Below, one piece after another: positions 2,499 through 7,544 of a stretch of DNA of 10,287 nucleotides. Position numbers and translations under genes: made by a program. Location of the stretch: NCBI GenBank assembly GCA_030630935.1, contig DAOVMD010000074.1:1-10287 (forward strand), in the 5' to 3' direction. The first letter of the stretch is position 1; every line of letters starts with the position of its first letter. Below the pieces are notes generated by a model. That model was given only the letters and a program-made list of their open reading frames with translations. It was not told the DNA's origin and did no database searches. This stretch comes from Candidatus Mcinerneyibacteriota bacterium (GTDB taxonomy: Bacteria; AUK180; JAQVHJ01).

Positions 2499-2542
2499 GA
2501 GCAAAATCGTGACGAAATATATATTATAATGCAGTAGGGGTA

Positions 2543-2562
2543 TTGTTTGCTCTCGCAAACAA
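2543..2562. repeat. Perfect 8-bp hairpin, loop TCTC
   Basis: TTGTTTGC (2543-2550) pairs with GCAAACAA (2555-2562). It lies upstream of both divergent promoters, so it is outside both transcripts unless there is antisense transcription. It could be a protein binding site. Confidence 0.5.
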
Positions 2563-2588
2563 CTGTTTGAGTAATCAGTTTGAGTTTG

Positions 2589-2604
2589 CTCCTGTAAACA
2601 GGAG
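2589..2604. repeat. TAAA-loop palindrome
   Basis: CTCCTG (2589-2594) and CAGGAG (2599-2604) pair around TAAA. Read on the minus strand the loop is TTTA, as in the palindromes at 160-177, 2828-2841, 10123-10142 and 10194-10207, although the stem differs in each. Confidence 0.55.
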
Positions 2605-2667
2605 TGTCTTCTAAATAACGTCTCAAATTCTTAAGCGCGTCACAAACGAAGTGCAGTGATCACGATC

Positions 2668-2687
2668 AATTTCAGGGATATGAAATT
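2668..2687. repeat. Perfect 7-bp inverted repeat
   Basis: AATTTCA (2668-2674) pairs with TGAAATT (2681-2687) around a six-base loop. Just before it is the self-complementary octamer GTGATCAC (2656-2663). Both could be operator-like sites, but nothing ties them to a known regulator. Confidence 0.4.
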
Positions 2688-2726
2688 AAATCGGGAAACC
2701 TGAACTGAATAATTAAAATATTTATT

Positions 2727-2802
2727 TTCTATTCTCCGTTCTCTGTTCTCTATTCTCTGTTCTCTACAGCGAAGCTGTTTGTTCTCTGCTCTCTGTTCTC
2801 GG
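2727..2802. repeat. Heptanucleotide array TTCTCTR, interrupted by a hairpin
   Basis: Five units in strict 7-bp register run from 2732 to 2766 (TTCTCCG, TTCTCTG, TTCTCTA, TTCTCTG, TTCTCTA), after a truncated unit at 2727-2731. Three more follow at 2782-2802 (TTCTCTG, CTCTCTG, TTCTCGG). Between the two blocks lies the hairpin ACAGC-GAA-GCTGT (2766-2778). The array is polypyrimidine on the plus strand, and its copy number could vary by slippage. It lies about 80 nt upstream of the -35 element of the TPR gene. Confidence 0.75.
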
Positions 2803-2805
2803 TGA

Positions 2806-2822
2806 GGTTAACAGAGTTAACC
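2806..2822. repeat. Perfect palindrome GGTTAAC-AGA-GTTAACC
   Basis: The 7-bp arms are separated by AGA. A degenerate copy with 14 of 17 bases the same lies at 9987-10003, after the last gene. So the element occurs on both sides of the plus-strand gene set. Confidence 0.55.
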
Positions 2823-2827
2823 GAATC

Positions 2828-2865
2828 AGCCATTTATGGCTAGTATGAAAACAATAAAAAAGAAA
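2828..2865. repeat. Intergenic repeat, copy 2, with TTTA-loop palindrome
   Basis: It is identical to 162-185 over its first 24 bases and nearly so for the following 14. The stem here is only AGCCA/TGGCT, because the outermost pairs of copy 1 are lost. It ends about 20 nt before the -35 element of the TPR gene promoter. Confidence 0.7.
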
Positions 2866-2883
2866 CTAAGAGTAAAAATAAAT

Positions 2884-2912
2884 TTGACTTTTTTATATTT
2901 AAGTGTTAAAAT
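2884..2912 (+). promoter_or_regulatory. Sigma70-type promoter with extended -10 for the TPR gene set
   Basis: TTGACT (2884-2889) and TAAAAT (2907-2912) are spaced by 17 nt, and TG at 2904-2905 gives an extended -10 (TGnTAAAAT). Transcription would begin near 2919, about 25 nt before the start codon. It should drive at least the first TPR gene and the lipoprotein gene. The -35 and the T run after it match those of the divergent promoter. Confidence 0.7.
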
Positions 2913-2927
2913 ATTATAGACAAATTG

Positions 2928-2976
2928 AATAGGAGGGTATGTTTATGAAACGATTAGTTCTGGTTTTTATTTTGGT
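2928..2976 (+). repeat. 49-bp 5' cassette, copy 1 (RBS plus signal-peptide start)
   Basis: This block matches 4931-4979 at 48 of 49 bases; the only difference is C2951 against A4954. It holds AGGAGGG, two in-frame ATGs (2939 and 2945) and the codons for MKRLVLVFILV. The similarity also extends upstream (ACAAATT) with a one-base indel. After 2976 the two genes are unrelated. Confidence 0.9.
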
Positions 2977-4912
2977 ATATTTTATCTTCATTAATATTGC
3001 ATTTGCAGTTGAAGTAAGTGACCAGGATGTTCTTGATATAAATTATTTAATGAGTTTAAATAAGTGGTCAGAAGCTGAAGAACATATAGATAGATTATTA
3101 AATAATAAAACGTTCAATAAAGATTCTGAAGGTTACTGTTATCTATTACATTCTTTATTTTCAATAAAAGTTGCAACAGGAGACTATACTCAAGCAGAAG
3201 AACTTTTTACTGAACTGTCGAAGGCAGTTATTAAAGTTCATGGTGAAAACTCTGAGCAATTAATCTTGGCCTACGTAAGTTATTTAAAGCTTAAGCTTGT
3301 CATGAAGGATTATTCCGGATTTGAGATAGGGTTAAAAAAGGTTGAATCTTTAATTAAAAAAGATACAAAATATGACCCGGCATTATTAGGTAAGGTTTAT
3401 TCAATTGCGGCAAATTATTATCATGAACGGTATAACTACGATAAATCAGAAATTTACGCGGATAAATCAATCGAATTCTTTTCAGTACGGGATCTAATGA
3501 ATAATAATTATTTAATTGCGCTATATATTAAGAGTGATGTTTATTTAAAAAAGGGAAATTATTCGGAAGCGGAGGAAATATATTCAAAAATGTTTGAGTA
3601 TGTTGAATCCTATAAGGAGACAGAACCAGGACTATGCAGCATTATAATATTAACATATATAGATTTAAAAAGACTTAAGGGCGAAGTTAAGAAAGCATTT
3701 GAAATTTATAATAAACACAAGGAATATTTAGATACATATTATAATTCAAATCAAGATCAGAAGAAAAATTATTATATAATCCTGTCAAATTTATACAATG
3801 ACGCTTTTGAATATGAAAAAGCTGAATTTTATAATAAAGAACTTCTTAAACTTCTTGGTAAGGATGATTATAGATATACTGCTCAGGTATATAAGAATTT
3901 AAATCAATTATATTTTATCCAGGGAAACATGAAACTTGCTGAAAAATGCGGAATTTTATCTTTACATGCTTATAATCAAATGAAATATTCAGATATGCAA
4001 TCAATGGCAATTGTCCTGAATTCCTTGGGGCTAATTAAGCTTTATCAAGGGGATTATAAAAATGCTGAAAGGTATCATAAAGATGCAATAAAATATCTAA
4101 AGAAGGTTACACCTGATAAGGAAAGTTTAGTTGGACAGCCCTATATTTGTAATCTGGCAAGAGTATATTTATTTACAGGAAGATGTTCCGAAGCCGAGAA
4201 ACTCCTTGACGAATATTATGACCCTGAAAAAGATATTAAGAAGGATGTTAATGCTGATATTCTTCTCGAAATCACGACGTACGCAAACTTAAGGTATTAT
4301 CAAGGTAGATACGATGAATCCATTAAGTATTTTGAGTTTGCGATTACAAAAGAAACGGAGCTGGCAGGGAAATATACTCCGGATATCGGGTTCATGTATA
4401 TAGATTATGCTGATGTTTATCTGGAGATGAAAGATTACGAAAAAGCAGAAGGAGCTTTAAAGAAAACTATCAAAATTTTACTCGGTGCAGGTTTACCGGA
4501 TATTGCTTTAAGCACAACCTATTGTAGGTTAGCCCGGATTTATATGGAGAGAGGTAACCTTGCAAAAGCTGAGGAGCTGGCAAAAAAGGCTTTGAAATGG
4601 GATAAACTTAGATTCGGTACAAATTATCCTACTGTGGCTGATGACTATGAAGTTTTGGGCCTGATAAACTTGAAGAAGGGCAACATGAAATTAAGTAAGA
4701 AATACTTAGAGAAATCCTTGAAAATTAGAGAGAAATTCTTTGGTGAATACTTAGTGCCTGAGATAGCAAGAGCATATGCCAATTTGGCCGAGTTCTATGA
4801 GATTAATAAGGATAATGTAAAAGCAAAAGAGTATGAAAACAAAGCAAAATATATTTATAATATTGTTTATAATAAAGATCACCCGAAATTGAAGGAATTA
4901 AAAAGGAATTAA
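2945..4912 (+). CDS. Secreted tetratricopeptide-repeat protein, paralogue 1
   Basis: From the ATG at 2945 the product has 655 residues. An in-frame ATG at 2939 is only 1 nt from AGGAGGG, so 2945, with a 7-nt spacing, is the better start. A Sec signal peptide ends at ...INIAFA (cleavage after about residue 21). The rest is almost all helical TPR repeats. Clear motifs lie at about 354-387 (LNSLGLIKLYQGDYKNAE), 485-515, 524-557 (CRLARIYMERGNLAKAEELA), 566-599 and 608-640, and weaker ones at about 62-95, 150-180 and 192-222. The style resembles the kinesin-light-chain/NPHP3 type TPRs. No catalytic domain is visible, so a scaffold or binding role outside the cytoplasm is inferred. It is a paralogue of the 5562-7544 product, with mature parts of nearly equal length (about 634 residues each). 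Its 5' end is shared with the lipoprotein gene 35 nt downstream. Confidence 0.9.
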   Translation: MKRLVLVFILVYFIFINIAFAVEVSDQDVLDINYLMSLNKWSEAEEHIDRLLNNKTFNKDSEGYCYLLHSLFSIKVATGDYTQAEELFTELSKAVIKVHGENSEQLILAYVSYLKLKLVMKDYSGFEIGLKKVESLIKKDTKYDPALLGKVYSIAANYYHERYNYDKSEIYADKSIEFFSVRDLMNNNYLIALYIKSDVYLKKGNYSEAEEIYSKMFEYVESYKETEPGLCSIIILTYIDLKRLKGEVKKAFEIYNKHKEYLDTYYNSNQDQKKNYYIILSNLYNDAFEYEKAEFYNKELLKLLGKDDYRYTAQVYKNLNQLYFIQGNMKLAEKCGILSLHAYNQMKYSDMQSMAIVLNSLGLIKLYQGDYKNAERYHKDAIKYLKKVTPDKESLVGQPYICNLARVYLFTGRCSEAEKLLDEYYDPEKDIKKDVNADILLEITTYANLRYYQGRYDESIKYFEFAITKETELAGKYTPDIGFMYIDYADVYLEMKDYEKAEGALKKTIKILLGAGLPDIALSTTYCRLARIYMERGNLAKAEELAKKALKWDKLRFGTNYPTVADDYEVLGLINLKKGNMKLSKKYLEKSLKIREKFFGEYLVPEIARAYANLAEFYEINKDNVKAKEYENKAKYIYNIVYNKDHPKLKELKRN

Positions 4913-4930
4913 AAAGAAAAAACAAATTAA

Positions 4931-4979
4931 AATAGGAGGGTATGTTTATGAAAAGATTAGTTCTGGTTTTTATTTTGGT
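4931..4979 (+). repeat. 49-bp 5' cassette, copy 2 (RBS plus signal-peptide start)
   Basis: This is the second copy of the 2928-2976 block, about 2 kb downstream and in the same orientation. It provides the ribosome binding site and the first eleven codons of the lipoprotein gene. No promoter travelled with it. Confidence 0.9.
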
Positions 4980-5445
4980 TTCAATGCTCATTTTCTTTTA
5001 TGGCTGTACCCCGACAAATACTTCGATTAAAGAGACATCATCATCGCCTGATTGGTCGAAGCTTGGGGCGAAGAAGAATTCTTCATCTGTTGACTGGTCG
5101 AAACTTGAGAAGAATATTGCTGTTACACCTACGGTAATTTCAAGTGATGAGACCTATGGTTACACAGAAGAGAATCCTATTAATGTCGGTGGAGTATATG
5201 AGACCGGACCACTAAGGAAAAGACAGTATCTTAACTGTTTATTGGGACCTAATGGAGAAGAGATAACGTACTATAGGGAAGGCTCATGCTGTCATTTTGA
5301 AACACCCAATGGACTTTTGGGAATTGGACTTCTTGACAGATTTAATATCACTTATCCAGGTTTGAAGGAACCTATTATCCTGTTCCTAAACCAGTACGAT
5401 TACGAAAAACCTATGGCTCCGAAAGGTTTCACGATAAAAGAGTGA
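4948..5445 (+). CDS. Small lipoprotein with two DWSKL repeats and a conserved GSCC domain
   Basis: The product has 165 residues from the ATG at 4948. The ATG at 4942 is too close to AGGAGGG. The signal peptide ends in IFFYGC, with C20 as the likely lipidated cysteine; the position -3 residue is F, an unusual but tolerable lipobox. Two short repeats follow, SSSPDWSKL (31-39) and SSSVDWSKL (45-53), which look like a duplicated linker. The C-terminal domain (about 68-165) has the blocks YGYTEENPINVGG, GPLRKRQYLN, LGPNGEE, GSCC (112-115), GLLD, ITYPGLK, YDYEKP and APKGF. I remember this block order from uncharacterised lipoproteins of Bacteroidetes-type genomes, some carrying a sugar-acid aldolase name that the sequence does not justify. 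The paired C114-C115 could bind metal or form disulfides. It lies between two TPR paralogues and is probably co-transcribed with the first. Confidence 0.85.
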   Translation: MKRLVLVFILVSMLIFFYGCTPTNTSIKETSSSPDWSKLGAKKNSSSVDWSKLEKNIAVTPTVISSDETYGYTEENPINVGGVYETGPLRKRQYLNCLLGPNGEEITYYREGSCCHFETPNGLLGIGLLDRFNITYPGLKEPIILFLNQYDYEKPMAPKGFTIKE

Positions 5446-5561
5446 GAAGAAATATAAGAGACAGGGCTTACATTTTGTTTCAGTATTATGTTTACTTCAG
5501 AATAGTGGAAGTTACTATTGTTAGTTGATCATTTAGAAATAATTTAAAAAGTAGGTGAGAC
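5446..5561 (+). other. 116-nt gap before the second TPR gene
   Basis: No gene is present. A 6-bp hairpin, AATAGT/ACTATT (5501-5519), is not followed by a T-tract. A poor promoter-like pair (TTGTTA at 5518-5523 and TAATTT at 5540-5545, 16 nt apart) could start transcription of the next gene. I cannot decide whether the operon is continuous here. The ribosome binding site of the next gene is AGGTGA at 5553-5558. Confidence 0.4.
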
Positions 5562-7544
5562 ATGAAGAGAAAATTAATTATTTGGTTTTTAGCTTTAATT
5601 ATTCTTTTAACCTTTTCATTTAAAACTACTATTTCTGCTAAAGAAATATCACAGCAGGATATGATTAATATAGAGAAGCTCAGGTCAAAAGGTGATTATG
5701 AAAAAGCAGAAGAATATATAAACAAGTTTTTAAATGATAAAACATTAAATAAAAACACTGCATACTATTGCTCTCTTTTATTTTCACAATTATTTATAAA
5801 GTTAAACGGTTGTGAGTATGACAAAGCAGAGGAAATTTTTCTTAAGTTAGAGGAAAGTATAGAGAGGGTTTTCGGTAAAAACTCAAATCAACTAATAATT
5901 GTTTATACTACCTATTTGAAAATGCAAAATACTACCAATAACGATAAAGTATTTATCGAGACGGTAGAAAAAATAGATAAAATAATTACTGAATCTAAAG
6001 ATCTCTCCCCGATTGTATTAGGAAAGTATAATTCTATCATCGCGAAGTTTTATTTTACAAGGTCAAATTATAAAAAAGCAGAAGAGTATTCAAAAAAATC
6101 AATAGAGTACTTCTCAAAGCAAGCTAAAATGGACCCGGATTTTGTAAATCCAATGATCATTTTAAGTGATATAAATGTACTTAATGGAAATTATACTGAG
6201 GCTGAAAAAGGCTATGAGAAACTTATGGAATATATTGAATTCTATAAATCAGTTCATCCGGAAATTAGTAAAGTAATTATCTTAGGATATATTGATATTA
6301 AACGCATGCAAGGTGACCTTAAATCATCCATTAAATTCTTAAATGAAAATAAAGAATTTTTAGATGGATATTTCCAAGAAAATAAAGATGAACAAAAGGA
6401 ATACTATTTAATCCTTGGGAATCTATATTCAGGTGCTTTTGATTATGAACAATCTGAATTCTATTATTTAGAACTTATTAAATTATTAGATGAAAATGAT
6501 AAGAAATATCGGTCTTTAACTTATAGTAGTTTATGTCTCCTGAATTATTTCCAGGGTAAAATGAAACTTGCAGAGAAATATGGGATTTTAGCTTTAAATA
6601 TTTATAATAAATTAGAGAAACCTGACTTTGCCAACATGTCGGGGACATTAAATGCTCTTGGACTTATAAGTACCTTTAGATTTGATTTTAAGAACGCTGA
6701 AAGATTACATAAGGATGCAATTAAATATCTGAAAAAAGTTCACTCAGAAAAAGAAGTTTTAGCGTCGCAACCTTATATTTGTAATCTTGCAAATGTTTAT
6801 CTTTATTCCGGGAGATATAAAGAAGCAGAGAAATTATTAGATGAATACTATCAACCTGAAGAAGATATTAAAAAGGAGGTTACAACCAATATTTTACATG
6901 AGCTAATTACTTATGCAAATTTAAGATTTTTCCAGGGTAAATATGAAGAATCAGTTCGATATTTCAATTTCGCTATAACAAAAGACCACGCCCTTGCTGG
7001 TAGAGATACATCGGATATTGCATTTACACTGGTTGGTTTATCTGATGTCTACCTTGAGATGGAAGATTATGACAAAGCAGAAGATGCTCTTAAAAAAGCA
7101 ATTGAAATATTTGATAATACGCCACAACTTTCTGAAAATGTAAAGAGTGATGCATTTTGCCGACTGGCAAAAGTTTATATTGCAAAGGGAGACTATTCTA
7201 AGGCGGAACAATTATCTAAGCAAGCATTAAAATGGAACAAGCAAAAATCCGGTTATAAATGCCCAAGTGCAGCTGATAATTATGAGAACCTTGGAATTAT
7301 TTATATGCATTTGGGAAAGATGTATAAGAGTAAAAGGTATTTAATGAAATCTCTGAAAATAAGGAAGGTATTTTTTAAAGATTATCTCTCCCCTGACCTT
7401 GCAAGTTCATACTTAAGTCTATCAAAATATTATAAGAAAAAAGGAGATTCAGTTAAAGCAGAGAAGTTTCATAAAATTGCTTTTGAGATGTATAAGAAGC
7501 TTTATGATATTGATCATCCTAAGTTAAAAGGCTTAACAAATTAA
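5562..7544 (+). CDS. Secreted tetratricopeptide-repeat protein, paralogue 2
   Basis: The product has 660 residues. A signal peptide ends near ...KTTISA (cleavage after about residue 26), and the mature part of about 634 residues aligns end to end with the 2945-4912 product. Landmarks shared in order include YCSLL, LGKYNSI, SIEYFS, GNYTEAE, KNAERLHKDAIKYLKKV, QPYICNLA, AEKLLDEYY, TYANLRFFQG, DVYLEM, CRLAKVYIAKGDYSKAE, KIRKVFF and DHPKLK. Similarity is strongest in the block around the equivalent of residues 370-510, where by eye more than half the residues are identical. It is clearly weaker in the N-terminal third. This suggests a conserved binding surface in the middle. Its signal peptide and 5' end do not belong to the 49-bp cassette family. 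The stop is one base before the next ATG, so translation of the two is likely coupled. Function is unknown beyond a binding or scaffold role. Confidence 0.9.
   Translation: MKRKLIIWFLALIILLTFSFKTTISAKEISQQDMINIEKLRSKGDYEKAEEYINKFLNDKTLNKNTAYYCSLLFSQLFIKLNGCEYDKAEEIFLKLEESIERVFGKNSNQLIIVYTTYLKMQNTTNNDKVFIETVEKIDKIITESKDLSPIVLGKYNSIIAKFYFTRSNYKKAEEYSKKSIEYFSKQAKMDPDFVNPMIILSDINVLNGNYTEAEKGYEKLMEYIEFYKSVHPEISKVIILGYIDIKRMQGDLKSSIKFLNENKEFLDGYFQENKDEQKEYYLILGNLYSGAFDYEQSEFYYLELIKLLDENDKKYRSLTYSSLCLLNYFQGKMKLAEKYGILALNIYNKLEKPDFANMSGTLNALGLISTFRFDFKNAERLHKDAIKYLKKVHSEKEVLASQPYICNLANVYLYSGRYKEAEKLLDEYYQPEEDIKKEVTTNILHELITYANLRFFQGKYEESVRYFNFAITKDHALAGRDTSDIAFTLVGLSDVYLEMEDYDKAEDALKKAIEIFDNTPQLSENVKSDAFCRLAKVYIAKGDYSKAEQLSKQALKWNKQKSGYKCPSAADNYENLGIIYMHLGKMYKSKRYLMKSLKIRKVFFKDYLSPDLASSYLSLSKYYKKKGDSVKAEKFHKIAFEMYKKLYDIDHPKLKGLTN

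Follow-up and report, generated by a model that had tools for sequence, protein, structure and literature searches.

Two adjacent genes in the 10,287-nucleotide contig of an uncultivated bacterium analysed here (the window), which encode unrelated proteins, an exported TPR protein (TPR1) and a small lipoprotein, carry almost the same sequence around their start codons. Direct comparison of positions 2928-2976 with 4931-4979 gave 48 identical bases out of 49, and BLAST lengthened the repeat to 2920-2976 and 4922-4979, i.e. 58 columns at 95% identity with three differences, one of which is an indel. The near-identity over 49 bp pointed out in a sequence-only reading of this DNA is thus confirmed, in a block that proves longer. 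That reading had also argued for a recent copy rather than convergence, and this is borne out: convergence is excluded because silent and untranslated positions are identical, and the block is a copy. As to how it arose, the origin that we favour, at somewhat better than even confidence, is one recent local partial duplication which gave one of the two genes the 5′ end of the other.

The two copies, called headers below, lie on one strand in direct orientation, at a spacing of 2003 bases, and belong to adjacent genes. Copy 1 (2920-2976, plus strand) comprises a 5′ untranslated part, an AGGAGGG ribosome site, the start codon at 2945 and the coding sequence as far as the second base of codon 11; copy 2 (4922-4979, plus strand) starts 10 bases past position 4912, where the TPR1 stop codon (4910-4912) ends. 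The sole mismatch within the 49 bases is in an arginine codon, CGA in the TPR gene and AGA in the lipoprotein gene, and since it is silent both copies encode MKRLVLVFILV. The double ATG described earlier is present, but only the second one (2945 and 4948), located 8 bases past the GGAGG of AGGAGGG, is well spaced; the first (2939 and 4942) is only 1-2 bases past the ribosome site and, for that reason, the second is probably the start codon. Beside the ribosome site and the start codon, the header appears to hold the beginning of a Sec signal peptide, with its charged and hydrophobic parts. The repeat covers about the first half of this signal peptide, and both the cleavage site and the promoter are outside.

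TPR1 (2945-4912, plus strand; 655 amino acids from the likely start) matches TPR_12 with an E-value of 9.8e-49, and its signal peptide, ending in ...IAFA, is signal-peptidase-I-like. The lipoprotein (4948-5445, plus strand; 165 amino acids from the likely start) has a signal that ends in FFYGC and matched no family in Pfam and NCBIfam. Judging from these ends, each gene seems to have kept its own cleavage site, for signal peptidase I in TPR1 and a lipobox in the lipoprotein. The latter belongs to a small unnamed family, recognizable by the pattern DETYGY...NPI...GPxGE...GSCCxF...APKGF, and relatives are present in four further genomes, which come from different families; an internal repeat, SSSxDWSKL, occurs in its N-terminal region. 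TPR1 has a tandem paralogue (48%), the second exported TPR protein TPR3 (5562-7544, plus strand), whose header, MKRKLIIWFLALIILL, is not the one described above.

A TPR1 promoter is predicted at 2884-2912 (plus strand; TTGACT-17-TAAAAT, with TG before the second hexamer). It is a consensus match only, and the call is weak by itself: 17 promoter-like sites were found in 2500-5700 versus 14.6 in shuffled sequences. From this match, the transcription start is expected at about 2919-2920. On its left side the block begins right where TPR1 transcription is predicted to start, possibly by chance. The lipoprotein gene starts 35 bases past the TPR1 stop codon and is probably co-transcribed with TPR1 from the promoter before the TPR gene. 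Because the block runs from about the predicted transcription start to the middle of the signal peptide, neither the promoter nor the type of cleavage (signal peptidase I or lipobox) would have been exchanged, and only half of the earlier proposal, a header that swaps signals for expression and secretion, holds.

How exceptional the resemblance is was assessed on a sample of 140 contigs plus the window (1.0 Mb, 812 genes found with a simple ORF caller), in which comparisons were made among all gene starts, and likewise among gene ends and among random stretches from inside genes, genes being taken as unrelated when BLASTP gave no homology (E 0.01). Among these 812 genes, start-spanning blocks of at least 40 bits between unrelated genes were found in three pairs only, which fall into two families: the window pair, at 90.9 bits, and two pairs of a second header family, at 75.5 and 60.2 bits. 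One might object that signal peptides are compositionally alike in an AT-rich genome, so that a similar ribosome site and signal peptide could come about by chance or convergence, and that the MAG to which the window belongs is fragmented, so that the repeat could be an assembly artefact. We regard this as barely credible. The best unrelated start-spanning pair outside both families reached 35 bits, compared with 90.9; all 17 bases just before the start codon are identical in the window pair and in no other of 238,395 gene pairs; and, given the same peptide, the probability that at least 9 of the 10 codons are identical, as they are here, is 5.6e-4 with the codon usage of the sampled genes. 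As for misassembly, the exact stretches common to both copies are only 23 and 25 bases long and the copies differ, so there is no long repeat on which an assembler could misjoin. A header-specific artefact of signal-peptide composition was also considered and rejected through the gene-interior and gene-end controls: the former gave no unrelated pair of at least 40 bits, and the latter two, at 67.8 and 42.9 bits, the 67.8-bit pair consisting of short ORFs of 77 and 84 amino acids.

Beyond the block the two genes have nothing detectable in common, as had been claimed. BLASTP found no homology between TPR1 and the lipoprotein, and over the 200 nt past the block the alignment score was lower than the shuffle mean, with 235 of 300 shuffles doing as well or better. 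Over the 150 nt upstream of the block, similarity between the two copies was not clearly above that of shuffles (31/300). A hidden longer duplication was accordingly rejected, similarity ending at the block edges. The same kind of similarity test gave no trace of another TPR1 body, either between the header and the lipoprotein or past the end of the latter.

The search for further copies, with a 71-base query and a 30-base pattern allowing up to three mismatches, covered the organism's own assembly (3.16 Mb, 471 contigs, 80% complete). Only two copies were found, as far as this 80% complete genome shows, both on the window contig and 2 kb apart. This count is one of two observations which, according to the sequence-only reading, would together refute its idea, the other being a divergence of the copies in relatives at the rate of the rest of each gene. 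The block was absent from 97 other genomes, and the exact header pattern from viral contigs. The closest genome compared (G001; same family, different genus) has a lipoprotein homologue of 43% identity with another header, MRIILVLICTLMLILNIGC, and at a different place, directly 3′ of an apolipoprotein N-acyltransferase-like gene identified by eye from its sequence; homologues also exist in three genomes more distant than G001. G001 has no close TPR1, and a scan of genome contigs for relatives of the TPR gene gave generic TPR matches only, at 29-37%. These results are hard to reconcile with the idea, put forward in the sequence-only reading, of an export header that is mobile or prone to conversion and spreads genome-wide among envelope genes. 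Reuse of a header on unrelated bodies at least twice in the same genome (see below) speaks for it. Yet the window header has two copies, both local, where a mobile element would be dispersed in the genome, and the second header occurs in small numbers, confined to a few gene families. Neither terminal repeats nor target duplications were recognised, and relatives have no copy. We consider such spreading extremely unlikely.

With two copies, none elsewhere and a different header in G001, the simplest reading is a recent local event in the lineage. In the partial duplication that we favour, about 58 bases would have been copied, from near the predicted transcription start through the ribosome site and the start codon to half of the signal peptide. 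The likeliest route would be a tandem duplication or an unequal exchange within the row of genes for exported proteins, after which one gene body may have been lost or replaced and the leftover header may have come to stand in frame before another body. With that, both genes would share a ribosome site and the start of a signal peptide for Sec export, provided that these export signals work as expected. Several features agree with this: the copies are direct, adjacent and on one strand, and copy 2 begins 10 bases past the TPR1 stop codon, beside the end of the first gene, which fits a tandem-duplication junction. Further support comes from the richness of the genome in short direct repeats, from the tandem paralogy of the TPR genes, and from the second header family, which shows the process at other stages, including an orphan copy. 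Against this route stand the missing remnant of a TPR1 body behind the second header, as judged by the similarity test, and an orphan header that is not clearly local.

Another possibility is short-tract gene conversion, in which the two genes had loosely similar headers of their own and, in one or several events, one header was overwritten by the other and the two were kept alike. A short, near-identical tract that ends sharply at either side would be expected from it, and the lipoprotein signal resembles that of the G001 homologue (8 of 17 positions alike, rank 2 among 33 lipoprotein signals), which fits the lipoprotein as the prior owner of the header. But this rank is a weak result, and the G001 header is too different in DNA, so that there is no sign of a matching stretch of sufficient length for conversion to have started in. 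We therefore retain conversion only as a tentative second choice. The rank lends the lipoprotein a weak, non-significant lean as header donor. The N-terminus of TPR1, compared with TPR3, ranked 17 among about 800 N-termini; the direction of copying was sought in these similarities, but ranks of 2/33 and 17/~800 are too weak to decide it.

The geometry at the locus is also exactly that of a 2-kb segment between direct repeats, as would result if recombination had inserted the TPR gene with its own header into the start of the lipoprotein gene, giving the order header, TPR body, header, lipoprotein. When the repeats are joined in silico, an intact in-frame lipoprotein gene is obtained behind the promoter. 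Any direct repeat at gene starts would have this property, though, and the excised form is absent from the assembly, while TPR1 bears no marks of a mobile unit; we hold an insertion to be unlikely. Even less probable, in our estimation, is that the headers act as a recombination pair, with loss of TPR1 and hence an irreversible alternation between a TPR-plus-lipoprotein and a lipoprotein-only state, of which the second header family would be an older and wider instance.

This second header, MKKLILTLLLILLIFPVVYC (MKKLIL...FPVVYC), is more diverged than the window header. It is carried by WG-repeat lipoprotein genes on contigs C20, C461 and C383 (for C20, Pfam WG_beta_rep, E-value 1.8e-104) and by a gene on C121 that matches CarboxypepD_reg and Por_Secre_tail. 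C20 and C121 came out as a pair in the first sample, and contigs C461 and C383 were added later on purpose. Main-form copies agree at just 50-55 of 63 bases, which makes the family older than the window pair; a diverged copy, MRKLIILMFLFLFLFPVVYC, which matches the functional ones at 44-46 of 63 bases, precedes an unknown 169-amino-acid lipoprotein (C461:8952). In addition, an orphan copy at C461:8030 (L128:8030-8092) lies 5 bases past the stop codon of a WG gene, has neither start codon nor body and runs into a stop at the lipobox. Its geometry is like that of copy 2 in the window, 10 bases past the TPR1 stop. The orphan agrees at 49 of 63 bases with the neighbouring WG gene and also with the C20 copy, and, being equally close to both, is no clear product of local tandem duplication. 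On C461 and C121 the genes upstream of the header are homologous (MNNIREEEK... and MMNDTREEEK...) and the bodies behind it differ. These arrangements fit duplication followed by loss or replacement of the body among exported genes, as far as can be read from the sequences. Taken with the window pair, this independent family supports the view that 5′ export headers are occasionally reused between unrelated genes of the same genome; of the header swapping proposed earlier, this much stands, and genome-wide spread of the block does not.

Some other features of the genome are of note. A membrane-anchored family of the type MNNIREEEK...KKKFNWKRFWFW (L128:5880-6335, L067:3231-3977 and 5200-5952; no confident Pfam match) is found repeatedly upstream of header-2 genes, behind near-identical promoter regions. 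The window itself contains, at 161-197 and 2827-2863, a palindromic element made of CAGCCATTTATGGCTA and then GTATGAAAA, of which there are 13 in the genome at no more than one mismatch, against none for the reversed control pattern; it is a REP-like intergenic repeat. Intergenic arrays of a AACACTTGAACTATTGAACTATCTCAACCTCCGCACACTTAAACG-like phrase occur on many contigs (L098:3853-4149 and 7212-7432, L094:17062-17271, L075:1521-1750, L049:961-1175), and the sampled genome as a whole is unusually rich in short direct repeats. On L082, two adjacent minus-strand genes at about 3630 and 3905, of 115 and 71 amino acids, both start with MPRGxxTGPxGMGPMTGRGLGFCA; their DNA agrees at 87% over more than 135 bases that span the start, BLASTP similarity being confined to the first 34 residues.

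Comparable arrangements have been described in mollicutes. In the vsp genes of Mycoplasma bovis and the vpma genes of M. agalactiae, the 5′ untranslated region and part of the signal peptide are conserved, and the bodies of one system are not significantly homologous to those of the other (PMC2268961). The window is alike in placing a conserved 5′ untranslated region and signal-peptide sequence on different bodies, its block ending in mid signal peptide. Whereas vsp and vpma are multi-gene lipoprotein loci with one promoter, switched by inversion through the site-specific recombinase Xer1, whose site of action lies within the 72 bases upstream of the start codon, the window has two direct copies, its block enters the coding region and one of its two genes does not encode a lipoprotein. 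Nor did Pfam recognise a site-specific recombinase among the proteins of the 10.3-kb contig. In Ureaplasma parvum, N-terminal paralogues of MBA have a common signal-peptide 5′ region, and recombination produces chimeric genes (PMC3047005); that system relies on inverted repeats, DNA inversion and phase variation, in contrast to the direct repeats of the window, where there is no evidence of switching. Having no gene cluster, recombinase or inverted orientation, the window is not classed with vsp/vpma or MBA. It is closer to ordinary bacterial partial tandem duplications and chimeric genes, in that the copies are direct and adjacent, one lies just past a stop codon, and the start of one gene stands on another body; it differs from them in that only the 58-base extreme 5′ end is left and the remainder of the unit is invisible. 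The papers found on signal-peptide shuffling dealt mainly with engineering.

Since the effect is local and small, and a parallel in mycoplasmas has been published, the general lesson is modest. If, however, header reuse is regular in this lineage, it would provide a simple route to new exported proteins, for which it is enough that a coding body ends up downstream of a ribosome site and signal peptide left over from another gene. The window pair would then be a fresh example and the second header family, from the same genome, an older example.
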